From the IMG/VR virus record IMGVR_UViG_3300032360_000001, positions 1 through 64,000 of that record: a stretch of 64,000 bases of DNA; one strand, 5' to 3'. This DNA is from a virus. Position 1 is the first letter of the stretch. Every line of letters starts with the position of its first letter. Shown here piece by piece: positions 1 to 58,362 of the stretch. Below the pieces are notes generated by a model. The model ran no database searches and was not told where the DNA came from. It saw nothing but the letters and a program-made list of their open reading frames with translations. The translations under genes were made by a program, and so were the position numbers.

Positions 1-625
1 GTAACTATCGGTCCCCGTAATGTAGACCGTTCCAGTTGCATAACTGGTGGTTCCTGTTACATAAGCCGTCCCGGTTACGTAGCTGATACCCGAGGCATAT
101 ACGGTCCCGGTTGCGTAGGTTATGCCTGTGGCATAAGTTGTGCCAGTTATATAACTGACCCCTGTGGTGTAGATATTTTCTCCGGTTATGTATTGGGTTC
201 CCGTGGCATAGGTCGTTCCCGTCGCGTAGGTCGTCCCCGTTGCGTATATTGCGCCGGTTGCGTAGGTCGTTCCAGTTACGTAACTGATCCCCGTGGTGTA
301 AATGTTTTCGCCTGTTATGTATTGGGTTCCCGTGGCGTAAGCGGTGCCACTTATGTATTGAGTCCCCGTGGTATAAGCTGTACCCGTTATGTGCTGGGTT
401 CCCGTGGCGTAAGTTATACCCGTCGCGTAGGTGGTCCCCGTTGTGTAGATTGTACCCGTGGCATAGATCGTGCCCGTCGCATAGGTTGTTCCTGTGGTAT
501 AGACCGTACCCGTTGCGTAAGTTGTTCCAGTTGCGTATGTGTTGCCTGTAGAGTAAGTGATTCCTGTTGCGTAAATGTTACCCGTTGCATAGACTATGCC
601 TGTAGAATAGGTCGTGCCCGTTATA
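1..625 (-). repeat. tandem 18-bp/hexapeptide repeat (xYxTGT) array
   Basis: On the minus strand the sequence reads as an almost unbroken series of six-residue units such as TYATGT, IYATGT, QYITGT and VYTTGT, over thirty in the window, continuing past the left edge. Tyr sits at position 2 and Thr-Gly at positions 4-5 of nearly every unit. A higher-order unit is superimposed: the phrase QYITGENIYTTG followed by (I/V)SY(V/I)TGTTYATG occurs at least twice, about 96 bp or a small multiple of 18 bp apart. Strict hexad periodicity suggests a beta-solenoid or beta-roll. Confidence 0.85.
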
Positions 626-3600
626 TATGCGGTACCTGTTATTCTGCTATTGTCTCCGGTTATCCTAACGTCATTCCCGCTTATGTAGTTTGTTCCCCCG
701 GTTATAAAAAATTGTTGTCCAGATACTGTATTTGCACCGTCTGTAATAAATACAGTCGTACCGGTCACATCTGTATATGTCGAATCGCTTATCGACACTG
801 TCCCAAAGTTGTCAAGGTCAATATTCGAACCTGTTATATACGTGGTGGAATTGGGCTGAGCAACCACGCTTACCAAGGCTCCAGAAACATAACTATTTCC
901 GACGGACAGCATGGAAAGAGTTGAGTCGTCTATGTTTGCGTTTCCGAAAGACTGTACGATACTATCTTTAAGCTCATTTATTTCGGTGTTTAAACTATTA
1001 ACATCAATCGTTCCCCCCGACACGTAGGTGTTACCATCCCCCGTGATGGTCACGGTACTGCCCGTTATGAAGCCGTTATTAATAGTTACAAATCCAGTTA
1101 CGAAATTCTGATCTCCAGATACGGTTATATCAGAACCGGTTATGAAAAGGTTCCCGCCGGTGTTATATACTTTGTAATTTGTGCCTGTTAAATTGACAAC
1201 GCCGCCGGATTGATTATATATGCCTATTCCGTCCCCCGTAATTCCCATGCTAGCTCCGCTCTGCATACCTGATACGCTAAGCGTCTCTACTCCGGTTATA
1301 AGAATAAGACCAGTTATATTATTAAATATACTAGTACCCCTGTAGATTCTTGGAGAGCCCCCTTCTAGGTTGAAATTTTCAATTACATTATCTGCAATTG
1401 TTTCCACTACGGCTCCCGCGGCCACGGTAATATTGTCAGAATCAGTTACGGTGACGGTGCTTCTGTCGATCTCTGCGCTTTCCGTAATCACGCTGCTCAC
1501 TGTGTTGCTATTTGCAGTTAATCCTGTTACAATTATTTGATTACCCGTAACTGACTGGATAACCCCCCCGGTTATATAATTTATGTCGCCGGTTACGCTC
1601 ATGTATGCACCATCCTCATTAATGAGCATATTGTATGTCGTATTTGTGCCCCCAGTAATACTTACATTACCGCTTTGGAGAAGCGCGCTTGTTGACCCGC
1701 CTGTTACATATAAATCACTTCCGCTTTGTACTGTTATGGTATTGACTCCTCCAGTAACCCCTATTCCTACCCCACTGAATATACTGGCTCCACTTTGCAC
1801 GAAAATGTGACTGCCAGTGACAAAGTTCGTTTGCCCGCTTAAGTTGACAGTTGACCCTGTTACAAACACAGACCCAGAGTTTGCCGTGATTGATCCCGTC
1901 GAATTCTGGAAACTTATATGCGCAGCGTTGGTCATTACCGCGCTTATGTTGCCTCCACTGGTTGCCATCAAGTTTCCTGATACCGTGGCGGTACCAGAAG
2001 TAAACAAATTTGTCCCTCCTGTTATGTTAATTGGTTGTTCTTTTGCAGAATAGAATACACCCGTGGAACTAGTCACGCTAATATGCTCTCCGCTAAATAC
2101 ACCCGTAGAATTTGATACGATCACTCTCCCCCCCGTTGCGTGAACGTTTTGTGATTGTCTTATATCAAAATTAATACCCGTAGCATCTATTCTTCCGGTG
2201 TGCAGGGTCAGCGTATTAGAATCGAAAAAGTTTCCACTAAAATAAAGAACACCAGTATCAAATTCTATATTTGTGGTGGAGCCTCTTCCGCTCACAATTA
2301 AACTGTTTATTTGGTGACCTGTTATGTTTACGGTCTCACTGTCGTTTGCAAAAATTGTTTCGGGGCCTTCTACGGTGACAAGCTGCGCGCTGTTTATTGA
2401 TCCTGCATTTCCGGTAATGTTTACCGTCGTTCCAGTAAGGCTTGACAAGGAGAAAGACGCGTTAGCGGTTATGTTCGCTGTCCCCGTGAGCGACGCATTG
2501 ACTGTCCCTCCTGTTACGTTTATGGTCGGACTTGTGCCGGTTATGAACGCCGTTGCTCCATCATTTATATTAAACGCGCTAGTGCTTAGAGTCGTACCGC
2601 TTATAGTCCCTAATATCGAAATGTCTGTTCCCGAAATATACTTTATTACCCCGTCGCCTGTATTGTAAATTACATTCGAGGTTCCACTTATACTTGTCGA
2701 TCCAGTGGGGTAAATAGTATTTACCGAATTGTAAATTTGTACACCATCCGTAGAGACGGTATGCGTACCACCAGTCATGGTAACATTTCCTGTTATCGTG
2801 TGGCCTCGACCCCCGGTTATATATACCCTTCCCTGACCGGTATTGGCATATATGATTATATCTTCTCCCCCAGTGATGTAACTCACTGTTCCCTCGTTTG
2901 CCACAAACACATTTGGTGCCAGCGAATAAGCCTTCACCTCAGAACCGGGCTCGTTGAATAGGTTCGTGGCGGTAGCTAAAGCTTGGTTATAAATGTGGGT
3001 TGAGACACCAGAGTACTCGTTTCTTACTGAAGATACAGAGCCGGTTATGCTTACATCGCTGTCGTATATATTATAGTTTTCTATCTGTAACTCGTCTACG
3101 CTACCCGTGAATTGGATCGCTGTCCCGGTTGACAAATCAGTCATGGTCAGATTCTGGCCAGATCCGGTCATGAACAGATTTATATTATACTGAATTGGTG
3201 TCGGGACTATAGTGTCAGTAAATTGCCGTATGAGTATCTCTTCCGCTACGTTTGGCGTTTGAGAGAAGACCACCCCCGTAAGATTGTCTATTGTGTAGTC
3301 TGTTGTCGGGGTTAGCGTCGATCCATCAAGAGAGACCCAAACGTTTTTAATGTTGTCTTCTGTTAATTCAAGGTGGAATGCATTTGTTACCCCATCTCCC
3401 ACGTGAGATGCGGACCCAGCTACATTTCCAACCCCTGTTCCTTCCCCGAACCGTAGAGTCAAGTCTCTTCTTACTCCAGAAAGGTCAAACTGTATATTGG
3501 TTCCTGTTATATTTTGAAAAAGATATTCTGCTGCAGGCAAGACCTCATCATCGTTAATGAAAAATTGAGCCCCCGATCCAGACAGGAACATTTTATTGTC

Positions 3601-6600
3601 CCTAATCAAAGCATAGTTTCCAGTATTTCCAAACTCAGATACCCGTAATGCCCCACCTGATATTTCCAAGTCTCTTTGCGGTACTACTATGGAAGTAAGC
3701 CTTCTGTAATTTTCATAAACATTATCTTGCGAAAGCGCTCCAGAATATAAGTGAACATTCTTTAGGAGCCCCTTGATGTGCTTTGTCGTGCTCGAGTTCG
3801 TTAATATATGAAAATCCTTTATGGGCACGCTTGGGTCTACGTAATCAATAGTTTTTGATCCTACGCTATCCGAGCTAACAAGAGCTCCATCTAGGTATAA
3901 GCTGTGAGTACTTCCATCCCAAGTTGTGTTAACAACGGAATACTGTCCGGTCTCTACTGGGTCGGTAAATAATGTAGATGATTTATCATCTGGATCTCCT
4001 CCCTCGTTAAATGTTACCTTTGAATAAAATCTCTTGTTTACGTCGAAGGTTATCTCATAGGATGCCGCTACCGTACCATGAGTATTGGGCACCTGTATAA
4101 GCGGGTCTCCAACCGTTCCTCCTAACTCTAGTGGCATAAACATGACCCCAAGAGTAAATGTTTCCGGCTTCAGGTCGTCTGTTATCGGAATTATTGCGTG
4201 CTGATCAGTTCCATCAAATTCAAGAGTGTTAGTAATTAATGCTGGAGAATTATAAAGTGTCGCGTCGTGGTTGTAGGTAGTGAGGTCTTGCCAAGTTCCG
4301 TCGCCGGTATAACTGTTTTTCGTTTCGGCGCTTAGGTGAAGAAGTTTATTCTCTAGTATTATTGCCTTGTGAAGCTTGTGCTCTATTGTGTCTTCTATGG
4401 GTACTGAGTCAACAAAGTATCTTCCAGACACGTTGACGTTATTTTCTACAACCGTATCCCCCAACACGGTTAATTTACCATATACGGTGGTGTCACCTTC
4501 GTATACTATGAAATCTCCAAGCTGACTTGACTCTGCGCCGATCTGATCGGTGGTTACTCTGACCTTAAAGTCCTGCGGGAACGTAACTAAACCTGAAGGA
4601 ACGAGTCCGGTTAAGTATGTTCCACCTGCGCCGTCATCAAGCTTGGCCCATATGGGTGAACTATATACATCACCATCTAAATTTGATATAAACTGAAAAT
4701 CAGAAGCGTGATGAAGCATTTCTCCATAGACATAAACTACCGTTTTTCCGACCACCCCCTCTTTCGGGTCGAAACTCGTCATTGTTGGAGACTTAATAGC
4801 ATTTAATAGGCCCAAAGAACCCATGTCCGCATTGGAATCTGACGAAAATGCTGATTGAGCAAATAGTGTTCCGCTTGCGTTTCCTGTGCCCGCTGGGATT
4901 GGAAAGTCAGAAGGAATCTGAAAATATAAATTATTGTATTCTTTGTTCGCTAAACTACTACTGGCGTCGTACTGGTCAAAATTCGATATTCCATACCCAC
5001 TGTCTCTCATAAACAAACCAGTTACGTTTGCCAATCCAGTGCCGTATAGCCTTATTTGTTGGCCGCGGTATCCACTTGTGGGTTCCGTAAATCCTACGGC
5101 TAATATTTCTGGCTCAATTATAATTGGAAGCCTGAATAATAAATCGTTTCCTAATCTTTGGTAAGTTTCCGTACCTGTCCATCCGCTATAAAAGCTTCCT
5201 TCTTTCTTGTGGATGTTTGTGGTTCCGGCTGCCCCACTCCAGTAGAATAAGTCCTCGGCGGTTACTTGTCCGTCTTGGTTTACATCAACCGTATCGTAGA
5301 ATCTTGGTGTCCCTGCTATGTTTTCTCTATATAATTGCCTAAGTGGCTTAGCAAAGCTCTGTTCGAAAATTGTTTGGCCACTTTTGTATACGGTGTCTTC
5401 GTCTAACCAGAAGAATAAAAATCCTGTTCCTACGAAATTGTCTGATATTGTTATTGGTATGTTATATAGGCCGGTTTTCTTCACGCCCTCGTCTCTTAGC
5501 CCGCTTGTATGTATGTGTCTTCTTATCTCTGCATTCCATATGTGCCCTAATGGATCGGAGTTATCTAGCAACTCGAATGGACTGTTCGGAATGAAGTAAT
5601 CCCCCAGATTAAACCAAGTGGCCTCGCTTCCGTCTTGAAAAAGCAGGTCTTGTCTCGTGCTGAATTTACTAAGAAACTCTATTTCTCTGCTTCCCGCATC
5701 TTCTTCTCCGGGGTGAGCTAACCCTGTTCCGCTAATTCCTATGGCATTAATGAAGGTTTTTTCGGCGTTTATTCCCGAGACGTATAGTGTTTGTCCTACT
5801 CTAATTGTCGTTGCTGAAATGCCAGATATAGCTGGGTACGCAGTTATATTTGTCGACAGGTCCTGATAGTCAGTTACAGTAAGGTCAATATCCGCCTTGT
5901 CTCGCCTTGACGTAAATAGCCTCGCGTCTTCGAGAAGGCAAGCTGGAATTTGAATCTCTACATACTCCGCGCCATCTGCCCCATACTTATATACATCATC
6001 TCCGTTTAATGGTTTTATGTAATCCCACGTTGGGTGCTTGTTTAGTCTGACTTCGGCAGCTGCATCAAAAACTCCTCCGCCTACTCCCCCTCCTTGAGTT
6101 TTCAAAAAGGATGGGCCTTCTTCCGCTGATGAAAATGACCCTACCCCACTAGAGATATTCGACATATCCATATGTCCACTTGAATACCCCTGAAACCAAT
6201 ATTTGGACTGATGAGTATCTGACCCACTTAGTATTATCGAATCCCCGTATATGCCTGTCCCGGGTTGAGCAAGATCCAGTGACACTACTTCGAAAACCTC
6301 TATTGGCAAAACGCTTTGCGCGTTTGTAAATTCGCCCATGAGCATGGGCTTGCCGTCTTCTGCGTCTATGGGTACTCTTATGTTTAATCCCGTCTTTGGA
6401 AAATCAAATCCCGTCGGCTCGAGTAAGGAATAGTAACTGTCCGGGGATACCGCCACTGTTGTCTGGGTATCATTTTTCCCCGTAAACCTTACCCCTGTAA
6501 CCAACTCCAAATTCGCACCAGATATTTTTAGGAAGTCGCTTCTTGCAACTAAGTCCGGATAATGACCACTGTAAAATATGCTATCTGGTATTGTCTGAAA

Positions 6601-8340
6601 CCTTTCCGTGGTGGTTACCGTTCCACCTGCTGCGGATACCCTTATTGGGGCTTCGAGTTCGCGATACAAATAATCATTAGTTAAGTAAGTGTGCTTCGGC
6701 GGTATTTCAAAACTTATTCCAGTTCCCCTTGACCCCAGAGTAGAGTAGGTCGTTACCGGTGTATTACCATGGTAAATTGATAGTAAGTTTACCAAGCTTG
6801 TTCCGCTTATTATCACTGTGCTTTCGTGTGCTCCAGAAGTAGGAGAAAATCCAGAAATTTCTGGTTCAGCAAAGAACCCGAAATACTGCCCCTCTGGACT
6901 TGTGGATTTTCCGACGCTGTTATCCACAACTATGGCGAAGTTGGAATCTTCAGACAAACCGGGAACGTACACGCTCATTACCTGAAGGCCAGTATCGGGA
7001 GTACCCTCTATTCCCGATATGCTTGCTGATATATTCCCAGAGAAGCCTCCGTGATCAACCAACCCACTAAAATATACAGCCGTTTCGGAATCATCAAAGA
7101 ATCCGCTACCAGTTATGTCTATTTTGTTTCCTTTAAAATCGCTTTTCGGTGAAAATCCTTTTACAAACGGGGGGTACTTTATGTATAAAGAGTCTTGTCC
7201 AGTTACAGATCCCCTTGGGGTTTCTATTACTATGTCGCAGTCTCTGTATCTTCCCGTTCCTGTTGGCAGGGTAAAGTCTATTTGGGTGTTGCTTTTGTTC
7301 GTTCCGTATGATATTACTAGCGAGTTAATTAAGTTTTCTTTATGATCTCCGTCTCTTTGCCCTGTTGGGTAGACATACAAGCCTGTAGTGTTGCCAAAAA
7401 ACTCTCCAGACATCGTTACGTAGTCGCCTCGATCACGTACTATGGAATGATCCCGATTCCCTCCATGGCTGCCCGCGGGTTTGCCAGTAACTGGAGTTAC
7501 TGACGATATAACGGGTGGCCCGGGAATCACATAAAAATCAATCCCGCTAGCATGATAACCCCCAAGTGAACTTCTTATTGACAGAAGACCTGAGTTCGCG
7601 CTTGAGGGTATCTTACCGGTTAGCCCTGTCGTTCCTACTAGCCCAAATCCGGTCTCTGCCCCATTGAAATCCACCAACCAACGGTTATAGTCTTGACTAG
7701 ACGAGTCGGTTGACGCCCTTACTAAAGCCCCTGTTACGAAGTTTTCTCCAGAAATTACGACATCATCAAATGGCTGCTCTCCCCCTCCGGGTCTATGCCT
7801 CTCCCCAGAAGAGGGTTGAACCCCCGTGATTATTACGTTTGTTTTCATCGTGGGGTACGTAGCACTCAGCCCGCTTTGCCCCACTATTTTCAAAGGTCCA
7901 TCTATATGCCCATAAGGGACAGTGAGTGGCAGAAAATTTATATCGACCATTCCGCTGTGCACGGTTGTCGCCGGCAATTGCCCTGTGCCAAAAAATGCCC
8001 CAGTAACCCCCGACAACGCTTGACCACTCACGCTCATTTGTGATCCGGGGACTGGCCTTTCCGTGGTTACCCCTAAAATTTGGGGCATTGGGACAAAATA
8101 TTCGCTTGCAGTTCCTGTTTGCTTCCTAAGTGTAGAGCCTACCTTTGGGTTCCCCCATTGAGCGGCTGATGGAATTGTGGCAATTAATAGCTCTTCATTA
8201 ACCCAATCGAAATTAGCAAAAACATAGTCTATCCCGCCGATGGTATCCGCATTAGGTTTATAGGGGAAAGAGACGCTGTCGATTTGGACAAACCCCTGCC
8301 CTTCGATCCTAACTGTCTGGCCTATTATTCCTGATGACAT
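1..8340 (-). CDS. giant tail-associated adhesin-like protein, partial (at least 2780 aa)
   Basis: The frame opens with ATG at 8338-8340 and stays free of stops to the left edge, so the gene is truncated by the window. Residues 1 to about 1290 hold roughly eleven IPT/TIG-like immunoglobulin folds, recognised by repeated units of the type SPTSG-x-xG-xx-VxIxGxxF followed by a GTG or FSG turn. An EF-hand loop DVNQDGQVTAEDLF lies near residue 1020. A laminin-G/ConA-like domain (LEFDGTDQH, SLYLDG, VHLYSGALS) spans about 1330-1545. From about 1700 the chain becomes a Thr/Ser/Gly-rich repeat with recurring ITGGT and VSG turns, suggesting a beta-solenoid, and it ends in YATGTT hexapeptides. The start lies 2 bp after the stop of an upstream tube-like gene that itself ends in a TIG domain. 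A surface fibre or tail decoration role is inferred; the IPT/TIG and LamG assignments rest on motif reading. Confidence 0.85.
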   Translation of the reverse strand, partial: MSSGIIGQTVRIEGQGFVQIDSVSFPYKPNADTIGGIDYVFANFDWVNEELLIATIPSAAQWGNPKVGSTLRKQTGTASEYFVPMPQILGVTTERPVPGSQMSVSGQALSGVTGAFFGTGQLPATTVHSGMVDINFLPLTVPYGHIDGPLKIVGQSGLSATYPTMKTNVIITGVQPSSGERHRPGGGEQPFDDVVISGENFVTGALVRASTDSSSQDYNRWLVDFNGAETGFGLVGTTGLTGKIPSSANSGLLSIRSSLGGYHASGIDFYVIPGPPVISSVTPVTGKPAGSHGGNRDHSIVRDRGDYVTMSGEFFGNTTGLYVYPTGQRDGDHKENLINSLVISYGTNKSNTQIDFTLPTGTGRYRDCDIVIETPRGSVTGQDSLYIKYPPFVKGFSPKSDFKGNKIDITGSGFFDDSETAVYFSGLVDHGGFSGNISASISGIEGTPDTGLQVMSVYVPGLSEDSNFAIVVDNSVGKSTSPEGQYFGFFAEPEISGFSPTSGAHESTVIISGTSLVNLLSIYHGNTPVTTYSTLGSRGTGISFEIPPKHTYLTNDYLYRELEAPIRVSAAGGTVTTTERFQTIPDSIFYSGHYPDLVARSDFLKISGANLELVTGVRFTGKNDTQTTVAVSPDSYYSLLEPTGFDFPKTGLNIRVPIDAEDGKPMLMGEFTNAQSVLPIEVFEVVSLDLAQPGTGIYGDSIILSGSDTHQSKYWFQGYSSGHMDMSNISSGVGSFSSAEEGPSFLKTQGGGVGGGVFDAAAEVRLNKHPTWDYIKPLNGDDVYKYGADGAEYVEIQIPACLLEDARLFTSRRDKADIDLTVTDYQDLSTNITAYPAISGISATTIRVGQTLYVSGINAEKTFINAIGISGTGLAHPGEEDAGSREIEFLSKFSTRQDLLFQDGSEATWFNLGDYFIPNSPFELLDNSDPLGHIWNAEIRRHIHTSGLRDEGVKKTGLYNIPITISDNFVGTGFLFFWLDEDTVYKSGQTIFEQSFAKPLRQLYRENIAGTPRFYDTVDVNQDGQVTAEDLFYWSGAAGTTNIHKKEGSFYSGWTGTETYQRLGNDLLFRLPIIIEPEILAVGFTEPTSGYRGQQIRLYGTGLANVTGLFMRDSGYGISNFDQYDASSSLANKEYNNLYFQIPSDFPIPAGTGNASGTLFAQSAFSSDSNADMGSLGLLNAIKSPTMTSFDPKEGVVGKTVVYVYGEMLHHASDFQFISNLDGDVYSSPIWAKLDDGAGGTYLTGLVPSGLVTFPQDFKVRVTTDQIGAESSQLGDFIVYEGDTTVYGKLTVLGDTVVENNVNVSGRYFVDSVPIEDTIEHKLHKAIILENKLLHLSAETKNSYTGDGTWQDLTTYNHDATLYNSPALITNTLEFDGTDQHAIIPITDDLKPETFTLGVMFMPLELGGTVGDPLIQVPNTHGTVAASYEITFDVNKRFYSKVTFNEGGDPDDKSSTLFTDPVETGQYSVVNTTWDGSTHSLYLDGALVSSDSVGSKTIDYVDPSVPIKDFHILTNSSTTKHIKGLLKNVHLYSGALSQDNVYENYRRLTSIVVPQRDLEISGGALRVSEFGNTGNYALIRDNKMFLSGSGAQFFINDDEVLPAAEYLFQNITGTNIQFDLSGVRRDLTLRFGEGTGVGNVAGSASHVGDGVTNAFHLELTEDNIKNVWVSLDGSTLTPTTDYTIDNLTGVVFSQTPNVAEEILIRQFTDTIVPTPIQYNINLFMTGSGQNLTMTDLSTGTAIQFTGSVDELQIENYNIYDSDVSITGSVSSVRNEYSGVSTHIYNQALATATNLFNEPGSEVKAYSLAPNVFVANEGTVSYITGGEDIIIYANTGQGRVYITGGRGHTITGNVTMTGGTHTVSTDGVQIYNSVNTIYPTGSTSISGTSNVIYNTGDGVIKYISGTDISILGTISGTTLSTSAFNINDGATAFITGTSPTINVTGGTVNASLTGTANITANASFSLSSLTGTTVNITGNAGSINSAQLVTVEGPETIFANDSETVNITGHQINSLIVSGRGSTTNIEFDTGVLYFSGNFFDSNTLTLHTGRIDATGINFDIRQSQNVHATGGRVIVSNSTGVFSGEHISVTSSTGVFYSAKEQPINITGGTNLFTSGTATVSGNLMATSGGNISAVMTNAAHISFQNSTGSITANSGSVFVTGSTVNLSGQTNFVTGSHIFVQSGASIFSGVGIGVTGGVNTITVQSGSDLYVTGGSTSALLQSGNVSITGGTNTTYNMLINEDGAYMSVTGDINYITGGVIQSVTGNQIIVTGLTANSNTVSSVITESAEIDRSTVTVTDSDNITVAAGAVVETIADNVIENFNLEGGSPRIYRGTSIFNNITGLILITGVETLSVSGMQSGASMGITGDGIGIYNQSGGVVNLTGTNYKVYNTGGNLFITGSDITVSGDQNFVTGFVTINNGFITGSTVTITGDGNTYVSGGTIDVNSLNTEINELKDSIVQSFGNANIDDSTLSMLSVGNSYVSGALVSVVAQPNSTTYITGSNIDLDNFGTVSISDSTYTDVTGTTVFITDGANTVSGQQFFITGGTNYISGNDVRITGDNSRITGTAYITGTTYSTGIVYATGNIYATGITYSTGNTYATGTTYATGTVYTTGTTYATGTIYATGTIYTTGTTYATGITYATGTQHITGTAYTTGTQYISGTAYATGTQYITGENIYTTGISYVTGTTYATGAIYATGTTYATGTTYATGTQYITGENIYTTGVSYITGTTYATGITYATGTVYASGISYVTGTAYVTGTTSYATGTVYITGTDSY
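626..3200 (-). repeat. Thr/Gly-rich beta-solenoid-like repeat region of the giant protein
   Basis: About 850 residues with irregular but constant recurrence of short strands ending in ITGGT, VTGxT, VSGxx, NITG or ITVQSG. Asn, Thr, Ser and Ile/Val dominate and long hydrophobic helices are absent. This looks like a parallel beta-helix with variable loop length, grading into the strict hexapeptide array on its C-terminal side. Fold assignment is an inference. Confidence 0.55.
3700..4360 (-). other. LamG/ConA-like lectin domain inside the giant protein
   Basis: About 220 residues contain LHLSAET, LEFDGTDQHAII, TWDGSTHSLYLDGALV and KNVHLYSGALSQDNVYENY. The order of strands and the closing phrase (structure on the surface followed by 'N-Y') match the laminin-G/concanavalin-A-like superfamily seen in phage fibres. 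Sugar binding is inferred from the fold only. Confidence 0.65.
4460..8340 (-). repeat. array of about eleven IPT/TIG-like domains in the giant protein
   Basis: Successive units share a start such as ISGFSPTSG, KGFSPKSD, SSVTPVTG, GFTEPTSG or TSFDPKEG, followed about ten residues later by VxISGxxF/L and a short GVxFxG strand. These are the hallmarks of IPT/TIG immunoglobulin-like folds. Spacing is roughly 90-130 residues. Divergence between copies is high, so they are old duplications rather than recent DNA repeats. Exact borders were not computed. Confidence 0.7.
5235..5300 (-). other. EF-hand/dockerin-like calcium loop inside the giant protein
   Basis: Translation of the minus strand gives DTVDVNQDGQVTAEDLFYW. 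It has the D-x-N-x-D-G-x-V-x-x-x-D spacing of a dockerin or EF-hand calcium loop. Only one such loop was seen, whereas dockerins carry two, so a structural calcium site between TIG units is more likely than a cohesin-binding module. Confidence 0.6.
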
Positions 8341-8342
8341 GC

Positions 8343-9452
8343 TTACCTTATTCTAGTTATTTGTATAGTAGAAGATAAAGACTTAAATGCCATAGTTGAT
8401 GCATTAGCGTTGTCTCCATTCTTTAAATATATTGTCCCGTCGGCTCCAGCTGTTTCCTCTGGAACTGTGAATCTTATTAAATTGTCGTTAACATATTGAC
8501 ACTCAAACAACTCAAAACTACCAATCCATACATCTGGATAGCTTAAAAAATTTATTCCACTTATGTCTATCGTTTCTCCCGGTGCTCCACCCGTGGGTCC
8601 CCACCCTTCTCCACCATTATCTGGGTGGTCTACTTCTTTCCCTGTTATTTTAGCTAAAAAGCTTGGAGCGTCTTGAGTTACCCGTATTGAGTTTTTTGCA
8701 AAACTTTGATTATCTGCTTGTATATTTTTTACATTTGTAAAGCCCCTAGCCTCGTAGTACACCTGTCTTGACAATGTTTCTCTGTCTCTTAACTCTATCC
8801 CAAGTATCGTGTTTTCCCCTTGCATCCTCATAGCCCCACTTAAGTTATCGATGGTTACGGCTGTTTCTAATTTTTTTGGACCGAAAGAGATGCTGTCTGG
8901 CTTTATGTTATAGAGTCCGGTTCCTGTTACTAAATTATAGACGGGTTTTACGTCCATTGAATAACTGAATGAAGCGTCTACTACCGAAGAGTTGGCGTCT
9001 GTTAGGCCTGTCCCGTTAATCGTCGCGTCTATGAAATTCAGCATGGTTTTGTCTTGACTCGGCTTTTCTGTACTCGGCGTAAACGAGCCTGACCCAAGTT
9101 GGCCTTCAAAATCAAAAAACGCTATCTCCACACTTGCCCGCGCCATGGTGTTGGGTGAGGCGCTTATTCTGTAGCTTGTGAGATGTCCGCTAGGAAAGCT
9201 CATCTGCCCAAAATTTCCTTCTATTCCTATATTTTCTTTATATATTAAATCATGAAAATAATCCTGCCCGGTTAGAACGTATGAAAAAGCCATGGTTCCA
9301 TTTACCGCTTCTGACGCTTGGTAAGAATGAGAGTATTTTTTGCTTGCGAAATACCGCGCTTCTAAGTTGGAATTTATATCAAATGAAAGATTAGCAGCAA
9401 CGAAAGATCGATTGTTTAAAAGTACGGTACAATTTTTATATGTATAAAACAT
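8343..9452 (-). CDS. tail-tube-like protein with C-terminal IPT/TIG domain
   Basis: A 369-residue protein. Residues 1-270 follow the two-half pattern of the major tail tube protein at 44194-45501: a first half with a SFDIN strand, a FSYVLTG phrase and a GHLTSYRISASP strand, then a second half with FSYSMDVKPVYNL. Residues about 285-365 are an added Ig-like IPT/TIG domain (GGAPGETIDISGINF, IRFTVPEETAG). The start ATG overlaps the upstream stop by one base (TAATG), so it is translationally coupled to the next tube-like gene. It probably forms part of the tail shaft or a tail-end ring that displays the extra domain. No membrane segment or signal peptide is visible. Confidence 0.65.
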   Translation of the reverse strand: MFYTYKNCTVLLNNRSFVAANLSFDINSNLEARYFASKKYSHSYQASEAVNGTMAFSYVLTGQDYFHDLIYKENIGIEGNFGQMSFPSGHLTSYRISASPNTMARASVEIAFFDFEGQLGSGSFTPSTEKPSQDKTMLNFIDATINGTGLTDANSSVVDASFSYSMDVKPVYNLVTGTGLYNIKPDSISFGPKKLETAVTIDNLSGAMRMQGENTILGIELRDRETLSRQVYYEARGFTNVKNIQADNQSFAKNSIRVTQDAPSFLAKITGKEVDHPDNGGEGWGPTGGAPGETIDISGINFLSYPDVWIGSFELFECQYVNDNLIRFTVPEETAGADGTIYLKNGDNANASTMAFKSLSSTIQITRIR

Positions 9453-10369
9453 TAATGGTACCTCCTAAGCGTGTACGAGGCTTTTGCGAAATCGTTTGTG
9501 TCTACAGATATGTCCGCGCTTTCTATTTTCATTCCTGAAAAATCAAATTCCATAAAATGCGAAGAAGTGTCGCATAAACCACTTAATGGTTCAATTCTTA
9601 CCCTAGGTGGAGACTCGGCGTCGTATTCATTAAAATATGATCCGTCCTCTAGCTGTCCACTAAATAAAGCCCATCCGCTTTCTCCGTAAAAAGTAACCGG
9701 ATGAGAGTCTGGCCCTTGACCGTCTACATTTATAGAGCAGGTATCTTTAACCACACTCGCGGTCTCCTCTGCGGTTAGAAGTTGTACTTGTTTCGGGTAT
9801 TTTTGCCCCAACACGTAAACTGGATTTATTACCCCCCTAAAATCATAGGAAAAATCATAGACTGGAGCCAATATTGTCCCATCGCTGGCGAGAAGGGACG
9901 TTGTCCAAGAGTGAGCCAAGCCGCTAAAGCTTTCCGCGTACCCTTTGTCAACTATACCTGATCGCTTGATTACCGTACCCGTGGGTGGCACAAACCCCAC
10001 GTATGAAGCGTTAGCTCTGACCAACTCGTTTGATGACACACTTACATTGTAGCTATCTAAGAAGTAGACTCCAGTTACCCCAGCCACGCCTATTACATTC
10101 GGCGGGATATCGTGATAATTTGGGTTTACCGTGTTGTGAACCAAGCTCAAGTAATCTAAAACATTTGCGTAAACCGGATCTTTTTCAACCTCTAAGTAGT
10201 AAGAAAAGCGCACAGCAGCTGCATATTGTCCGTCTGGATCGGATCCTTCCGCGAGGTTTTTGCCCATAGCGCGGACAGCGACAATGGCATTAGAAGTAGA
10301 CAGCGATACCTGCTCGGCCATTACCCCTGTACCGTTTACCACTACATCGCAATTATTGAAAAAAATCAT
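9452..10369 (-). CDS. tail-tube-like protein, paralogue 2
   Basis: A 305-residue protein. It starts with IFFNNCDVVVNG, and contains VRFSYYLEVEKDPVYANVL, an Ig-like strand series around SYNVSVSSNELVRANASYVGF and a second-half phrase YDFSYDFRGVINPVYVLG. That last phrase closely parallels the FSYSMDVKPVYNLV stretch of the downstream neighbour. This supports a shared tube-protein ancestry and a two-fold internal layout. A GTGTAATT motif lies 27 nt upstream of its start. It probably acts as a tail shaft or distal-tail ring component; specialised function is unknown. Confidence 0.6.
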   Translation of the reverse strand: MIFFNNCDVVVNGTGVMAEQVSLSTSNAIVAVRAMGKNLAEGSDPDGQYAAAVRFSYYLEVEKDPVYANVLDYLSLVHNTVNPNYHDIPPNVIGVAGVTGVYFLDSYNVSVSSNELVRANASYVGFVPPTGTVIKRSGIVDKGYAESFSGLAHSWTTSLLASDGTILAPVYDFSYDFRGVINPVYVLGQKYPKQVQLLTAEETASVVKDTCSINVDGQGPDSHPVTFYGESGWALFSGQLEDGSYFNEYDAESPPRVRIEPLSGLCDTSSHFMEFDFSGMKIESADISVDTNDFAKASYTLRRYH

Positions 10370-10410: not shown

Positions 10411-11364
10411 TTAGTTAGTAATTGTAACTAATTGTGGAGTATTGAGGTTTCCGGTCTCGGTCAGAAGGTTCTCTATGTATACCTTATATCTGGCTTGTAT
10501 TTTTAAGTTATTATTAACGTCTACTGAGTAATTTTCACCTACTAAAGTAGCTCCCGTGAAATTAAATTGCGTTATTACTTGATAGGTTTGGTAGTCTTTT
10601 ATTCTAACATCAAAATTCTTAAGTTTTGCTTTGCATGGATACCCCCTGAATGTGCTCCCCGAGTACCCCACGTCAGAGCCATTGACCTCAATTGTGAAAT
10701 CTGCTGTTGCCACCACGGGATAGTCTATTTCCACGGAAAATGGACTCCTTCTTCCTATTTTATAATAATCTTTCCTTGGTATATCTAGCCCCAATGTGAA
10801 ATTATTTACAATATTGGCGTCAAAATCATCCATTGTTATCTCAACGCTTGTCGGGGCACCAATTCTGTATCCCCCATCACCCGGATTATCTGCGAATCCT
10901 GTGGGCGCGGTTTGGGCAACGGTTGAACCAGTTATATACCTCAATTCTTGCACTGCTTGGGCTGGTAGCGACCCAGATGGAATTTTTCCCATATCCCCCA
11001 CTACCCTAAAGGTTCCGTTTACTTCAGGTAATGCGTCGACGGCGCATGATAGGGTGTATCTTGTCAAATACCCCGAATAAAAACTATAAAACCTAGTGGA
11101 ATCTTTCCTATCGTCGGTTATAAACCCATTGAACCCCCCGCTATGTATACATTTCACAAGGGGATCAGTATCCACAACCAGCGTATTGATTGAAAAATCC
11201 CCTATTTGTGGCCCTTGCGGAACTACGATGGAATTTGATTGGCCTATGAATTCAAGCGGCGATTCTGGTATTTGCCAATTATACGATAAGGACTGCGCTC
11301 CATGTACCTGCCCAGACCCTATAAAAACCTCCTGTTTCTCTCTATTGACTATCTTAAATGCCAT
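10411..11364 (-). CDS. tail-tube-like protein, paralogue 1
   Basis: A 317-residue protein. It aligns by eye with the major tail tube protein in order and spacing: a SLSYNWQIPESPLEF strand matches ANYSFNIPRTDINQF; SGYLTRYTLSCAVDALP matches GNGFITSYTTECSVGNFP; LGLDIPRKDYYKIGRRSPFSVEIDYP matches ISLDMAREPINRLGSRFAFSREITFP; and LKNFDVRIKD matches LKNCKVNSQ. It is the first gene of a minus-strand group facing the tail-tip genes across a 66-bp divergent gap, with GTGTAATA 7 nt upstream of its ATG. It may be a tail-end or tip-proximal tube ring; major or minor status cannot be read from sequence. Confidence 0.7.
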   Translation of the reverse strand: MAFKIVNREKQEVFIGSGQVHGAQSLSYNWQIPESPLEFIGQSNSIVVPQGPQIGDFSINTLVVDTDPLVKCIHSGGFNGFITDDRKDSTRFYSFYSGYLTRYTLSCAVDALPEVNGTFRVVGDMGKIPSGSLPAQAVQELRYITGSTVAQTAPTGFADNPGDGGYRIGAPTSVEITMDDFDANIVNNFTLGLDIPRKDYYKIGRRSPFSVEIDYPVVATADFTIEVNGSDVGYSGSTFRGYPCKAKLKNFDVRIKDYQTYQVITQFNFTGATLVGENYSVDVNNNLKIQARYKVYIENLLTETGNLNTPQLVTITN

Positions 11365-11430: not shown

Positions 11431-11976
11431 ATGGGTACTAACATTTATAATATAGAAGAGTTCAATGCTGGAACAGAATATAAGAAAAACGACATAGTCT
11501 GGTACGACCTTACGGTAAGTTCTAAAACACGCAAATACTATTGGTATGCCTCTGTTCCCGGGGTGCTTAGCGCACCGTCGCTTTCAAACCACCAGTGGGC
11601 GGGAGTAAAATTTGACAGCGTCAAAACCACAACCAACAAGCCGCATTTTTGGTGGAAGCCTTCCTATAATTTTACCATAGAAAATAAACCGAGAGTTATC
11701 CGTCATTCCTATGGAGACGGCTACGAACAAAGAGTTATCGATGGCATAGAAAGCGTTCTGTTAAGAGCCACGATTAACTTCGAGACTAGAGACGCGGCTG
11801 AAGCTAAAGCAATTACCCATTTTTTTCACATGAGAAAAGCTCAGGAATCTTTCCTGTGCATGCTCCCCGCACCGTATAATATTGATAAATTGTATGTCGC
11901 CAGAGATTGGGGCGTGACTTTCAATTTCTATGACAATTATACCATACGAGCAACCTTCGAAGAAGTAACAAACTAA
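11431..11976 (+). CDS. minor tail protein M homologue with N-terminal CBM5/12-like module
   Basis: A 181-residue protein. Residues about 70-181 match the lambda gpM family: KPRVIRHSYGDGYEQRVIDGI, then a FETRDAAEAKAITHFF helix and a WGVTFNFYDNYTIRATFEEV end. The family forms the ring that joins tube to tip. Residues 1-60 (GTEYKKNDIVWYD, KYYWYAS, HQWAG) look like a small chitin-binding (CBM5/12) type module absent from lambda gpM. The ATG has a good upstream AGGAAAAAGG. It is first in the plus-strand tail-tip operon and 9 bp precede the L-like gene. Confidence 0.8.
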   Translation: MGTNIYNIEEFNAGTEYKKNDIVWYDLTVSSKTRKYYWYASVPGVLSAPSLSNHQWAGVKFDSVKTTTNKPHFWWKPSYNFTIENKPRVIRHSYGDGYEQRVIDGIESVLLRATINFETRDAAEAKAITHFFHMRKAQESFLCMLPAPYNIDKLYVARDWGVTFNFYDNYTIRATFEEVTN

Positions 11977-11985
11977 CACCATAAC

Positions 11986-13269
11986 ATGTCAAGTGATAAA
12001 AAATTAAGCGATTTCTCTAAGGTCAGAATAGATAAAACAAAACATTCTGCGAAAAAAATTATTAGCGAGATGGGTAGGGTTGCCCCGTCTTCTGTCGTGA
12101 CTCTATACGAAATAGATTTAGAAGATTTGCTGATAGACGAAAACATGCCCTATCTCGAAACTACTTTAGCCGGAGAAGCCGTTTTCAGATTCCACAACAA
12201 CCTAAAGCTTACTAAACAAAAATTATACTGGAAGGGCGAAGAGTACCATCCCTTACCTGTGTACGTGGAGGGGTTCGACAGCAATACGAGGGGCTCCGCA
12301 CCCACCCCTAGAATGAGTATGGTGGCGAATGAAAAAGATGACAACCAATCGATGTTCAGGTCCTTTAAGCTAATGGTAAGACAGCTAGATGATCTAATTG
12401 GCGCTAAGGTAACAAGAGTAAGGACCTTTGCTAAATACCTCGACGTGAAAAACTTTTACGATATTCAACAAGGAGGAGGAAGGGTTACCTTGGGCGACGA
12501 CACTTTAATACCCGAAGGGTTTACGCCAGACCCATTAGCGGAATTCCCTAGGGAAATATTTTTCATAAACAGAAAAAGCGTAGAGAACAAAAATGGATTA
12601 GAATTCGAGTTGGGTTCTTTTATTGATTTTGAAAGTCTAAAGCTCCCAACCAGACTGGTTATTTCAAGGTATTGTCAATTTCAGTATAGGGGAGAGGGTT
12701 GCATTTATGAATACCAGAGCAACGGAGACGTCATGACCGACGACCAACTTATCTCGGCCTTTGGCACGGATAGTACTAACGAACTTAAATTTCCTTGCAA
12801 AGCTCCCCCTATAGCAGACGAAAATGACGAGCTTTTCACAGACGAACTCGACGTAAACTACAACCCACAACAACAGGCAACAGCGTATGATCCTGCTAGC
12901 AGCTATACTATAGGGCAAAATATTTATTTAACTAAAAATGATATAAAATATTATTTTATAGCGAAAGGAACCGTGCCCGCCGCTGAAGGGGGAACTTTAT
13001 CGACAATTCCACCCAACAACAATTACTGGCTGGAAGACAAGTGTTCCAAAACAATAAAAGGGTGCAAATTAAGATGGTCAGACGAGTACAAAAAGCACAC
13101 AGATATACGTGTTTTCGGCGCAGCCACAGATACAATGATTGGCACCTCAACTACCTGCGGCGTCTACTCAATGAGTAACCCATGCGGTGGCTGCGGCACA
13201 AATACGCATGCCGGTTGCTTACCATTTGGGGGTTTTCCTGCCGTCGAAAAACTAGCTGGTGGAGCTTAA
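11986..13269 (+). CDS. minor tail protein L homologue (iron-sulfur type), enlarged
   Basis: A 427-residue protein, roughly twice the usual length of lambda gpL. It has the family order: TLYEIDLEDL near residue 40, the SMVANE/DLIGAKVTRVRTF core, then RYCQFQYRGEGCIYE, CSKTIKGCKLRW and the conserved GCLPFGGFPAVEKL end. In lambda gpL four cysteines bind a [4Fe-4S] cluster; the CxxxxxxxxC and CxxxxxxC pairs here are the likely equivalents. Between the two pairs lies an insert of about 120 residues that contains a second CBM5/12-like stretch (YDPASSYTIGQNIYL, KYYFIAKG, NNYWLED). It is expected to sit at the tail tip next to M. Confidence 0.85.
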   Translation: MSSDKKLSDFSKVRIDKTKHSAKKIISEMGRVAPSSVVTLYEIDLEDLLIDENMPYLETTLAGEAVFRFHNNLKLTKQKLYWKGEEYHPLPVYVEGFDSNTRGSAPTPRMSMVANEKDDNQSMFRSFKLMVRQLDDLIGAKVTRVRTFAKYLDVKNFYDIQQGGGRVTLGDDTLIPEGFTPDPLAEFPREIFFINRKSVENKNGLEFELGSFIDFESLKLPTRLVISRYCQFQYRGEGCIYEYQSNGDVMTDDQLISAFGTDSTNELKFPCKAPPIADENDELFTDELDVNYNPQQQATAYDPASSYTIGQNIYLTKNDIKYYFIAKGTVPAAEGGTLSTIPPNNNYWLEDKCSKTIKGCKLRWSDEYKKHTDIRVFGAATDTMIGTSTTCGVYSMSNPCGGCGTNTHAGCLPFGGFPAVEKLAGGA

Positions 13270-14006
13270 TGATGAAAGACTACATTAAAAAACATATAAG
13301 AGACCACGCTCTAGAAGAGTCACCCTACGAGTGCTGTGGAATTTTATACCAAGAGGAGGACTCCCTTCGGCTTAAAGCTTTAAGATGTAGAAATATAGCC
13401 GAAAACAAACGCATGATGTTTTCAATTGATCCAAGCGACTACTTGAAAGCCGCGAATTTTGGCGAAATAATTTCCTTTTATCACTCACACATAAACAGTA
13501 GTGAATTTTCTGATTACGACAAAATACAAAGCGAACACCACGAAATAAAATTCATAATGTATAGCCTTAAGAGTCAAAAGTTCAAAGAATACGAACCAAA
13601 GGGGTGTGAGTCTTTTTACATAGGTAGAGACTTTTGTTTGGGAAAAAATGATTGTTATACTTTAGGGCGTGATTACTACAAAGAAGAATTAAATATTGAT
13701 TTGCCAGAAAAAGAAAGGAACTTCGAGTATATCACATCAAACCCAAGTTGGTTTACCGATGGCTATTCCGAGGAAGGGTTTAAAACTGTCCTAGAGGGAG
13801 AAGTTACCGACGGATCTATACTAAAAAAACACGACGCAATCCTAATGAAATGCTATGGAAAGAGGAACCCCAGTCATGGCGCTATTTATGTTGGTAATGA
13901 TTTAATTTTACACCACCAAATAAATTGCTACTCCAGAATCGAAGAGTACAATAAAGAATTTAAAAAAAGAACCACACACGTACTTAGACACGAAAGTCAA
14001 TTTTGA
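13269..14006 (+). CDS. tail assembly protein K homologue, copy 1 (JAMM plus NlpC/P60)
   Basis: The start is taken as the ATG at 13269, which overlaps the L stop as TAATG; a longer frame from 13182 would run through the end of the L gene. The 245-residue product begins with a JAB/MPN domain: ECCGILY, then SFYHSHINSSEFSDYD carrying His-x-His and the Ser-x-x-Asp of the metal site, with six rather than the usual seven residues between. The second half is NlpC/P60-like: NDCYTLGRDYY provides the Cys nucleophile, SHGAIYVGNDLILHH the His region. In lambda, K processes or assembles the tip, and its P60 domain cleaves peptidoglycan-type bonds. It overlaps the next gene by 4 bp. Confidence 0.85.
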   Translation: MMKDYIKKHIRDHALEESPYECCGILYQEEDSLRLKALRCRNIAENKRMMFSIDPSDYLKAANFGEIISFYHSHINSSEFSDYDKIQSEHHEIKFIMYSLKSQKFKEYEPKGCESFYIGRDFCLGKNDCYTLGRDYYKEELNIDLPEKERNFEYITSNPSWFTDGYSEEGFKTVLEGEVTDGSILKKHDAILMKCYGKRNPSHGAIYVGNDLILHHQINCYSRIEEYNKEFKKRTTHVLRHESQF

Positions 14007-14857
14007 AAATAACAAAAAAAGTCAAAGAAAGCATCAAGAAACATTCCTTGGAAGAATCTCCAAACGAATGCTGTGGTATTGTTTTGAAAAATAATGGTCG
14101 TTTTATTACCAAAAAATGTAAAAATATATCAGAAAACCCCACCTATCATTGCGTCGTCTCCGAAGAAGATTTAAAAAATAAAATTGGGGATTCAGATCTT
14201 TTTGCTATTTACCATTCTCATTTTGATGAAAAAGAGCTATCTTGGGCTGATAAAAACGAAGGCGAAAGATTAAAAACAAACATTATTCTTTATTGCGTCA
14301 AGGATGATTGTTTCGATTCTCACGAGCCAGATGGTTTTGTCGCTCCTTTTGTGGGCAGAGAATGGACTTCGGGTATTACCACATGTATAGATTTGTTGGA
14401 GGACTACTATCGAAAACTCTTTAACATAGGACTTACTGGACACGAAAAATTTTTACTGCCCATAATTGAGGAAGCTCGTAGCGGATCATTATCACGGCTG
14501 GAGGGATCATGCGCCATGTCCTTGTTTTTTAAATCCGCAGAAGATAGCGAGGAAGGAAGACGCCTAAAAAAAATGATTGAAAAGTATAAGAAAATCCCTG
14601 CATATTTAAATTTTCTCAAACACAACGAATTTTATGAAGTTAAAGCTCTCGAAAAACATGACGTAATTTTAACTAAAACTTGGAACGAAAAATGGAACAA
14701 AAAATACAACATATACCATGGAATACACTCTATGGTCTATCTTGGCGACGGCAAGGTATTGCATCACCCATGGAAACAGACCTCAAGAATAGAAAAGCTC
14801 AATACTAATCATAAACTAGCTATAACAAACATTTTAAGACATGAAAAAGCCCGTTGA
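14003..14857 (+). CDS. tail assembly protein K homologue, copy 2 (JAMM plus NlpC/P60)
   Basis: It starts with TTG inside a TTGA overlap with the stop of copy 1; no in-frame ATG lies early enough. The 284-residue product repeats the layout of copy 1: NECCGIVL, then AIYHSHFDEKELSWAD with the same HSH and SxxD, then TTCIDLLEDYY (Cys) and YHGIHSMVYLGDGKVLHHP (His). Between the two NlpC/P60 motifs it has about 50 additional residues (around 150-210), rich in Lys and Glu. Both sets of catalytic residues survive, so neither copy appears to be a dead duplicate. The last 17 bp overlap the I-like gene. Confidence 0.85.
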   Translation: MKITKKVKESIKKHSLEESPNECCGIVLKNNGRFITKKCKNISENPTYHCVVSEEDLKNKIGDSDLFAIYHSHFDEKELSWADKNEGERLKTNIILYCVKDDCFDSHEPDGFVAPFVGREWTSGITTCIDLLEDYYRKLFNIGLTGHEKFLLPIIEEARSGSLSRLEGSCAMSLFFKSAEDSEEGRRLKKMIEKYKKIPAYLNFLKHNEFYEVKALEKHDVILTKTWNEKWNKKYNIYHGIHSMVYLGDGKVLHHPWKQTSRIEKLNTNHKLAITNILRHEKAR

Positions 14858-15533
14858 AATTAAACTCCACGGAAAACTGGGGAGAAAAACAGGAATGAAA
14901 ACTTGGAACTTGCACGTGCAAAGCGTCTCGGAAGCGCTACATGCAATTAATAAACTGTCAGACGGCAAGCTATTCAGACAACTCGGTAGAGAGCAGAAGA
15001 AAAATCAAAAATTTAAAATATTAATTAATGATGAGCCATGGAAATCAGACTCAGATGTTCGACTTGATCGCATATATGACGACGAAGCCGAATCACGAAA
15101 GCAACTAGAACTTATAAATAATTCCGAGCTTAAGATTAAAAACCCCAAGCTAAAAAAAATAGATATAGTTCCCGTGGTTGAGGGGGCGGATGAAGTTTTT
15201 ACTATAATTTTTGCTATTATAATTATTATCGTAGGCTTTATGGTTATAGCAGCAGGCCATGCTGAGATTGGAGCGCAGATAATAATGGCTGGAATTGGCC
15301 TTTTGGCCGCGGGTATAGCAGCATTACTTATGGAACCCCCCGAAATGGACGAACTGAAGAATTTCGAGGGGGCCACATCAGCTTCCTACCTATTTAATGG
15401 TCCAGTAAACATCGTAAAAGAAGGTGGTCCCGTACCCATTTGCTACGGCGAACTTTTATGCGGTAGTCAGACACTTGCCGCTTATTATGATATATACGAC
15501 GTAGAAGCAGCGTCAAGCTCAATAAGTAACTAA
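14841..15533 (+). CDS. tail assembly protein I homologue
   Basis: A 230-residue protein. Residues 1-110 form a ubiquitin-like/ThiS-like N-terminal domain (IKLHGKLGRKTG...WNLHVQSVSEALHAI, FKILINDEPW), as in lambda gpI. It is followed by strongly hydrophobic segments at about 118-140 (FTIIFAIIIIIVGFMVIAAG) and 145-165 and ends with the family phrase GPVPICYGELLCGSQ. In lambda, I helps assemble or load J and is not found in the mature virion. It sits directly between K and J in lambda order and ends 4 bp before J. Confidence 0.85.
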   Translation: MKKPVEIKLHGKLGRKTGMKTWNLHVQSVSEALHAINKLSDGKLFRQLGREQKKNQKFKILINDEPWKSDSDVRLDRIYDDEAESRKQLELINNSELKIKNPKLKKIDIVPVVEGADEVFTIIFAIIIIIVGFMVIAAGHAEIGAQIIMAGIGLLAAGIAALLMEPPEMDELKNFEGATSASYLFNGPVNIVKEGGPVPICYGELLCGSQTLAAYYDIYDVEAASSSISN

Positions 15534-15537
15534 TCAA

Positions 15538-18500
15538 ATGAAAAGAAAGCCCAAAATCAAGAAGACGAGATACCCTATCACGCTTGGGCCTAATGGAGAA
15601 ATTCAATTCTTTAAGGGGGGCGGAGGAGGGTCTCAACCAAATCCCAGAGATGTTGTTCACGAGCCGGAAGGAGTAGACACTCCTGAATTCCCTCGTCCAT
15701 CTGATGACGATTCTCAGGGTAAACCCCCGGGTGCGGTATCTCTTTCTACAGTAGAAGTCCTAGACTGCTTAGGCGAAGGCCCCATTGATGGGCTCACTTC
15801 GGGTTATTATCACAAGTCTGGTTACGTAGGAGAAACCGGCTACAGGTTGGTAAAATTTAAACCATACGTGTCTGGTACCGCTGCTCAGATTCAATCCGGG
15901 TGGGCCAGATCCGTATATTATAATGGCATACAGGTCCTATCACAAGCTGGCTATAGGAATTTTCAAAATGTTGATGTGACCCATTCTAAAGGTGAGCCCG
16001 CGGGTGAAAATTTAATATTAGATTCTAATTCCGAGGACACCTTGCAGATTCAAAGGTCTTTAGGGGAAAGACTACGTGGTCCGGAGCTTAAATATAAAGA
16101 TTCAAATTACTCCGCCGACTCCATGATTCTTAAACCCGGGGAGGACAGTCTCGGCAGAAGCGAGGGCCTCCCAAAATACTACAACATAACAAATAAAAGA
16201 TGCACAGCTTTCGTAATGGTTGTACGGGTGTCAATGCTCTCAGAGACCCTAATGACCGGGTCCACAGAGAAAGGCACTAAGACTGGAAAGGGTGACGTAA
16301 AGCAAACCTCCGTCACTTACCGCATAGACCACAAGCCATATTATTCTGACGACACAAAAAACACGGACTTCTTTCCGAGGAATAGCGCAGGCGACGTAGT
16401 GCAACAACCTCTTACTAACGTCACATCAAAAACAATTCGCGGTAAGATTACAGATGGGTATGCGCAGTCAACAAAAATAACTCCCAACCCCACTTCCTTT
16501 GGATCCCAGTACGGGTATTCCGACGTAACGGAAGATCCTGATTTTATAGGCTGGCGTATTGCCGTATATAGGGAGACCTTTGATTCTTTTAGGGGATCTT
16601 TAAGGAATCAAACCTTCGTCGATTCTCTCACTGAAATATACGAAGAAAAATTCTGCTACCCAACCTCCGCGTTTATAAGACACAAATTCAGAGCGGATAC
16701 ATTCGGGCAAGTTCCAGCAAGAACCCACCAGATAAGAGGGCTTCGAGTAAAGGTTCCGAACAACTACAACCCCATTATGCGCACATATGGGGGAATCCTA
16801 GGCGGTACCGCCGCTGGGCTTCCACCGGTGAACGAGGGAGACCCCCTGCTTGACACAACAACCACGGTTTGGGATGGAGACTGGAAGCGTCACGCTGCAG
16901 GCACTGAAGCAGGCAAGCTGAAAAAAGAATGGACAGATAACCCTGCTTGGATTTACTACGACATCATAACAAATAAAAGATACGGTTTAGGAAAATACAT
17001 CGGAGAAGATCGAGTCGATAAATGGTCGATGTTTAAAATCGCACAATATTGTGACGAGCTTGTCCCCAATGGCTTCACAGCGCAAGATTATGATGACGAA
17101 CCCGGTAAAGACTTTGGTGAAGCTAGATTTACAGCAAATATTTACATCGCCAACCAAGAAGACGCTTTTTCCGTAATCAATAATATTGCTAGCGTATTTA
17201 GGGGGCTTACTTTTTATAGCGCCGGTAAGCTTCAAGCAACGCATGATGCGCCCAAGGAACCGACGTACCTATTTAACAATTCAAATGTCATGGATGGCGA
17301 CTTTTTGTACAGTAGTTCCGCTAAGAAAGCCAGACATTCAGTTTGTCTAGTGAGATACAACGACGAAGCAAACAAGTACAAACCCAGCATAGAATATGTT
17401 GAGGACGTCGATTCTATCAAAAAATACGGAATAAGAGTCAAAGATGTAACCGCCTTTGGTACGACCTCAAAAACTCAAGCGCAAAGATGGGGACAGTGGA
17501 CCCTAGCAACTGAAAGGCTCGAAACAGAGACCTGCAACTTTACAGCAGGAATAGAAGGAGCTTATCTTCAGGCAGGTGATATTATTGCTACGTCAGACGA
17601 AAATAGGGGGACATATCAAGACGTAGCTACAAGGAGAAGAGGAGGAAGAGTCCTTAATTTTCAGATTTCTTCTGGTCGTAACATGGACGGTCAACCGAAC
17701 TGGACAGGGAGAGCAGTTCTTGATAGCTCGATATCTGGCTGGATCGATGGTGGTTCTTATTATTCAATACCCGAGGTTGGCCAAAAGGGTGAATTACATT
17801 TTAGCATCGTAACCCCCCCAGCGTATGGTGATCCTTTAACAAGCGATCTTAGTACAAGCGACTTGGCGAATCTTTATAGCAGAAAATCCGCCGTTCAGAA
17901 GCTTAGTTTCAGAAAAGCAGATGCTGGCGTTGGAACATCAGCCAACTTCGTGGGAGAAAGTGGCTGGGCCACCAATGACTTAATGGCCGATGGATCATTA
18001 TCAATTTCTGACTACGATAGAACATCCATTGAAAACCACACTATAATACATTTCACGGGGCTATATCATAACGGAACAAACGTACTCAACGACAAAGACT
18101 ACAACATAACAGGGTTCACGGGGTTACTTTACGACAACAACGGGAACGAACAATTAGCTCCTGACGGTTCCAACTATTCTGGGTTCGTAGAGAACCCGCC
18201 GGACAATTTTCTCTGGGCGGTGGAATACACAGGCGCTTTACTTCAGGGGCACGGCGGTAAACCAGATCGAGAGCTCTGGAAAATCATCGGGGTAGAAGAA
18301 AAAAATAATTTCAAATACGCAGTCCAATGCATTTCGCATGACCAGTCTAAGTTCGATTTTGTTGACAGACAATATGAGCCCCTCGTGGGGGAATCCATAG
18401 GCACCCCAAATGCCCCTACGTTCTCGTCTAATCCATTTACCATTACTCAGCTAGGTAGCCTAACAGCAAAAAAGGTTACGGTTAGATGGAACAAGCCAAG

Positions 18501-49056: not shown

Positions 49057-49059
49057 ATC

Positions 49060-50172: not shown

Positions 50173-50174
50173 AG

Positions 50175-58361: not shown

Positions 58362-58362
58362 G

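Follow-up and report, generated by a model that had tools for sequence, protein, structure and literature searches.

A giant TIG-array gene beside tail-tube paralogues, probably encoding a side fibre of an uncultured siphovirus

The long side fibres of phage T5 are based on a tail-tube paralogue of the tail tip, p140, which is surrounded by a collar of Ig-fold proteins (p132) that lies between tube and fibre and holds the side fibres (PMC10038345). According to the same study, these two genes are found only in T5-like phages, of which they are a landmark, and fibres must be anchored differently elsewhere (PMC10038345). The attachment of side fibres to lambda-like siphophage tails is not settled. 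Tail-tube proteins with C-terminal Ig domains have also been described, namely lambda gpV, T5 pb6 and SPP1 gp17.1* (PMC9022992, PMC8718954). T4 Hoc joins a virion-binding domain to a string of Ig-like domains, three in number and located on the capsid (PMC10385173).

We analysed a window of 64,000 nucleotides (positions 1 to 64,000 of the IMG/VR record IMGVR_UViG_3300032360_000001), in which a giant gene follows three tail-tube-like genes, tube1, tube2 and tube3. An earlier note on this DNA had suggested that the giant could be a long whisker or side fibre, and this remains the best reading: an uncultured siphovirus probably uses it as a side fibre (whisker), with a ring formed by a tail-tube paralogue as the anchor. 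T5 makes its collar (p132) and its L-shaped fibre (pb1) as separate, non-homologous proteins, and p140 is without an Ig domain, whereas here the tube protein itself bears the first TIG and the fibre carries on the array. A T5-type anchor, with a decoration-less tube paralogue and a separate Ig collar, was rejected, as tube3 has its own TIG. The architecture is shared with lambda gpV, T5 pb6 and SPP1 gp17.1*, in which a tail-tube fold is followed by a C-terminal Ig-like domain, but here this domain is a TIG and the array adds about 11 units and thousands of residues. The array is likewise far longer than that of Hoc, and lies on a tail-tube paralogue. We found no earlier account of side-fibre anchoring through a modified tail-tube protein. 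A literature search on phage tails with TIG arrays or giant ORFs likewise returned no description, a weak negative given that subscription journals are mostly outside its coverage.

Extent and domains of the giant protein

The giant ORF occupies positions 1-8340 of the window (-), with its ATG at 8340, and encodes 2,780 aa with the left edge open. The first base of the window is also that of its source record (89,345 bp), so that this truncation is an assembly edge and not a stop. In the sister contig IMGVR 3300031800_000001, which is 89% identical, at least 3,676 aa of the giant frame are free of stops. Scanning for the YATGT repeat pattern detected the downstream contig IMGVR 3300032360_000027, which shares 134 bp with the window edge at its end (99.3% identity) and in which the giant frame is open for 5,267 codons and then stops. 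The sister contig bridges this join, with a collinear alignment that runs 2.9 kb past the window edge. The joined gene has 24,009 nt and encodes about 8,003 aa, a length that is approximate, as two contigs of near-identical strains were joined and short-read assembly may have collapsed repeats; the window holds the N-terminal 2,780 residues, about one third. The true length, which the earlier note had left open, was thus resolved by extension of the left flank, and the stop immediately outside the window, which that note had named as a refutation, is absent.

Past the stop of the giant lies a convergent gene of 243 aa. Four other phage contigs have a homologue of it next to the same end of the locus, and one of these carries the entire locus. 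The giant gene does not continue at the other end of the record through circular closure, as an open frame that would carry it on is absent there. Comparison with the sister contig gave dN/dS values of 0.10-0.19 in every segment compared, the hexapeptide run described below included, and the giant is therefore a real protein under purifying selection. Among phage structural proteins about 8,000 residues is a very large size; of the PHROGs profiles encountered in this analysis, the longest has 6,136 positions. A PHROGs search with the giant and its relatives assigned no family.

From the N- to the C-terminus, the giant consists of about 11 TIG-like units with a calcium loop before the last two, a LamG domain, a T7-fibre-like domain, a probable beta-roll solenoid, a C1q-like insert and a C-terminus of fibre type. 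TIG-like units 2 to 10 (5761-8340, -; TIG1 being that of tube3) and units 11 and 12 (4501-5118, -) score below the Pfam threshold in the window and were called by their repeated motif and by alignment to relatives, in which the TIGs exceed the cut-off. The EF-hand/dockerin-like calcium loop, DVNQDGQVTAED, lies at 5251-5286 (-; residues 1019-1030) and has a counterpart at the matching place in a relative (contig L033), DFNGDGIVTQHD, where the EF-hand matches are weak and sub-threshold. The LamG/concanavalin-A-like lectin domain (3718-4341, -) passes the cut-off of PF13385 (41.8 bits, cut-off 27.6) and is also present in the relatives L028, L033 and L031. The T7 tail-fibre N-terminal-like domain (3211-3405, -) gives a weak match to PF03906 in the window (E 0.021), and the same family exceeds its cut-off in L028 with 31.9 bits.

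The region at 1-3138 (-) is TG-rich and probably forms a beta-roll solenoid, judging from its tandem repeats and their spacing. After the T7-fibre-like domain the joined giant has about 6,000 mostly TG-rich residues, with repeat spacing peaks at 7 and 6, and the final 627 bp of the gene within the window encode YxTGxx hexapeptides. Matches to LbR_Ice_bind in the downstream contig reached 29.0 and 23.5 bits, just under the Pfam gathering cut-off of 30, and no such match was found in a shuffled control. We therefore did not assign the giant to this family and retain a structural resemblance. In the grass antifreeze beta-roll fold each turn takes 14-15 residues (PMC5744647). The grass protein LpAFP, a member of LbR_Ice_bind, has seven turns (PMC5744647), whereas the giant, with its NYITGxx motif and 7-residue spacing, probably has hundreds if this resemblance from a sub-cut-off match is followed. 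If each turn of a beta-roll took up 14 residues and about 0.48 nm, the shaft would measure about 200 nm. For residues 1881-2780 AlphaFold gave a poor model (pLDDT 41), which was left out of the fold search, so that shape and length of the shaft are estimates, a point that weighs against the side-fibre reading. The downstream contig also encodes a C1q-like insert with a Pfam score slightly under the cut-off. The C-terminal motif YDxxWLYV...GW.R..L.PW is common to the relatives, and we take it to resemble the ends of phage fibres. The combination of TIG array, calcium loop, lectin domain and beta-solenoid proposed in the earlier note is thus recovered, with LamG above the Pfam cut-off, the TIGs and loop by motif and alignment, and the solenoid by the LbR_Ice_bind resemblance and the 6/7 periodicity.

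TIG, LamG and dockerin-like domains are common in bacterial surface proteins, and the giant might be read as a cell-surface or secreted adhesin that the phage brings to its host by lysogenic conversion and that is unrelated to the virion. We regard this as extremely improbable: no signal peptide was seen by eye at the N-terminus of the giant, the T7-fibre domain is above the cut-off in the relative L028, and another relative (L032) joins the TIG array and a tail-tube protein in one polypeptide. The bacterial adhesin locus that the earlier note had named as counter-evidence did not appear either, as a scan of genome_contigs with tube1 as the sole probe found no cellular relative of this protein.

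Tail-tube paralogues and the surrounding tail genes

The genes tube1, tube2, tube3 and the giant are all on the (-) strand, divergent from a lambda-like tail-tip operon of minor tail, K, I and J genes (11431-20598, +; PHROGs phrog_14, 18, 30, 32 and 31). Within the operon, two adjacent, overlapping K-like tail genes (13182-14857, +) are paralogues with 29% identity. Tube3 (8343-9452, -; 369 aa) ends, as had been noted before, in a TIG domain, TIG1 (8394-8597, -), which matches PF01833 with 25.2 bits against a cut-off of 20.9. Profile comparison by hhalign paired tube2 (9452-10369, -) with tube3 (94%), and tube1 (10411-11364, -), the best-conserved gene of the cassette, with a putative major tail-tube protein of 435 aa (44194-45501, -; 77%) that is encoded before the tape measure gene. 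A comparison of the same type between tube1 and tube2 did not give a convincing match, and PDB sequence searches with tube3 and tube1 returned nothing relevant.

The fold of tube3 was modelled on its homologue in L032, in which tube3 and at least six TIGs form one chain of at least 891 aa. In the AlphaFold model of this chain (pLDDT 70), residues 3-264 adopt a tail-tube fold, followed by a TIG at 264-347 and by further TIGs. The model matches the tubes of P74-26 (Z 16.1), SH-Ab15497 (Z 15.8) and T5 (Z 15.0) and the T5 tip ring protein (Z 14.5), with rmsd of 5.6-6.8 over 237-248 residues. The tube3 of the window aligns to this homologue with 36% identity, and it is thus predicted to combine a tail-tube fold with a C-terminal Ig-like (TIG) domain. 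This fold and the adjoining lambda-like tip genes agree with the former description of the giant as a phage-type gene beside tube paralogues.

The tape measure gene (22482-41771, -; phrog_4211, E 1.5e-51) encodes 6,429 aa, and a sister contig has a frame of 6,041 aa. Tape measure proteins account for about 0.15 nm of tail per residue, which puts the predicted tail length of this phage at about 0.96 micrometre. This predicted length exceeds the figure of >800 nm quoted for the tail of P74-26 (PMC9022992).

Tube3 has the same architecture as T5 pb6, a tube followed by a C-terminal Ig, and C-terminal Ig decorations line the whole tails of other siphophages (PMC9022992). Tube3 might on these grounds be an alternative major tail protein, with many giants coating the tail of about 1 micrometre. 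We find such whole-tail decoration unlikely, since the phage has a putative major tail protein apart from these, encoded at 44194-45501 ahead of the tape measure, and tube1 to tube3 lie beside, and divergent from, the tip genes, like p140 in T5. A virion would also have to bear a very large load if it displayed hundreds of 8,003-aa chains.

Shifting gene boundaries among relatives

Relatives were collected by scans with tube1 and with the LamG-to-solenoid region. The tube genes were found in 16 other viral contigs, one of which, 3300032048_000622, hardly differs from the window. Ten contigs show tube3 followed by a TIG ORF and one more (L032) a fusion, so that the arrangement which the earlier note had suggested searching for in other viral contigs does recur. 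In many of these contigs the cassette is divergent from the tail-tip genes. Among isolate phages in the collection searched, neither a DNA nor a protein match to the cassette was found. The ORF1 of a relative matched isolate phages of Synechococcus and Flavobacterium over a LamG-sized region only, and this cassette was not seen in the neighbourhoods of those matches.

The boundaries between the genes differ among lineages. In the window lineage a tube3 of 369 aa is followed by the giant of 8,003 aa, and TIG2 is divided by the gene boundary, its first strand being encoded by tube3 and the rest, from the next turn on, by the giant. In a split lineage (L028, L033, L041, L042 and L044) a tube3 of 356-365 aa is followed by an ORF1 of 2,149-2,309 aa and then by the solenoid in an ORF of its own (up to 3,774 aa), the boundary between ORF1 and ORF2 lying inside the repeat solenoid; the tube3/ORF1 boundary of this lineage is also seen in L029 and L031. 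In L017, tube3 has 625 aa with about three further TIGs, and the cut comes after about four TIGs. In these data one continuous TIG array spans both genes, with a gene boundary that moves along it. The earlier note had invoked recombination between the decoration modules of the two genes; this was not upheld, because the boundary shifts seen in L032 (fused), L017 and the window (both cut) are better explained by fission and fusion of a single array than by exchange of modules.

Starts at the tube3/giant-type boundaries abut or overlap the preceding stops, and the ORF1 stop and the start of the solenoid ORF do so exactly (TAAATG, TCATGA; L028 19441-19446, L033 19308-19311). The frame relation from the tube3 gene to its extension is -1 in the window and L031, +1 in L028 and L041, and 0 in L033. 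A programmed frameshift of the SPP1 gp17.1* type at the tube3/giant boundary was ruled out by this inconsistency; starts placed directly at stops, together with unconserved frames, fit translational coupling better.

A proposed fibre on a tail ring

Natural fusions such as that of L032 indicate that the TIG array belongs on tube3. We propose that tube3 would form a ring in or beside the tail tip, its TIG domain facing outward, and that the array would run on from tube3 into the giant, made from the next, coupled gene. The Ig-decorated tube architecture, the tip-gene context and the precedent of T5 p140 all argue for such a ring close to the tip; with T5-like symmetry it would bear about three projecting giant fibres. 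Following the TIGs, each fibre would comprise the calcium loop, the LamG lectin and the phage fibre domain, continue as a very long shaft of beta-roll-like build and end in a fibre-type tip, with a reach of perhaps 0.2-0.25 micrometre. The lectin-type domains may allow reversible binding to surface glycans ahead of engagement by J, the central tip protein. Natural gene fusions in an uncultured phage family point to a fibre that can grow from the Ig-like decoration of a tail-tube paralogue, and boundaries that move inside domains offer a testable model of fibre assembly.

The context of tail-tip genes in which the giant lies favours the side fibre. Against it, tube3 and the giant of the window lineage are separate polypeptides, whose association we infer. 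When the chains are separate, the strand that remains at the C-terminus of tube3 could possibly complete TIG2. More generally, and as a tentative idea that we would not call likely, assembly may proceed by strand complementation, the last strand of tube3 completing in trans the truncated first TIG of the giant and the halves of split solenoids stacking end to end. Such a fibre would be a non-covalent chain with joints inside folded domains, and its gene boundaries would be free to move while the final structure stayed unchanged.

T4 Hoc offers a parallel to a row of Ig-like domains with an adhesive part at its end (PMC10385173), and the giant could accordingly be a tail-tip or neck component other than a side fibre, for example a neck whisker for fibre retraction or environment sensing, like Hoc or T4 fibritin. 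This is quite improbable, as the genes are grouped with the tail tip and not with neck or head, and three tube paralogues are better suited to extra distal rings, for which T5 p140 and T4 gp54 are precedents. A further argument against the side-fibre reading of the giant is a collagen-like tail fibre of 1,750 aa (58363-63615, -; Pfam Collagen, 110 bits), which could be the real side fibre. Small proteins encoded after it (57363-58421 and 55315-56364) look LamG-like by eye.

Other genes on the tail side of the window form a cassette at 48307-55059 (-), which holds a sulfotransferase-like gene (phrog_3347) and a related gene, together with radical-SAM-like and glycosyltransferase-like genes recognized by eye. 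Also by eye, a flavin-dependent halogenase-like gene was seen in the sister contig L022 (6583-8223), and genes resembling GDP-mannose dehydratase and GDP-fucose synthase in the contig L035.
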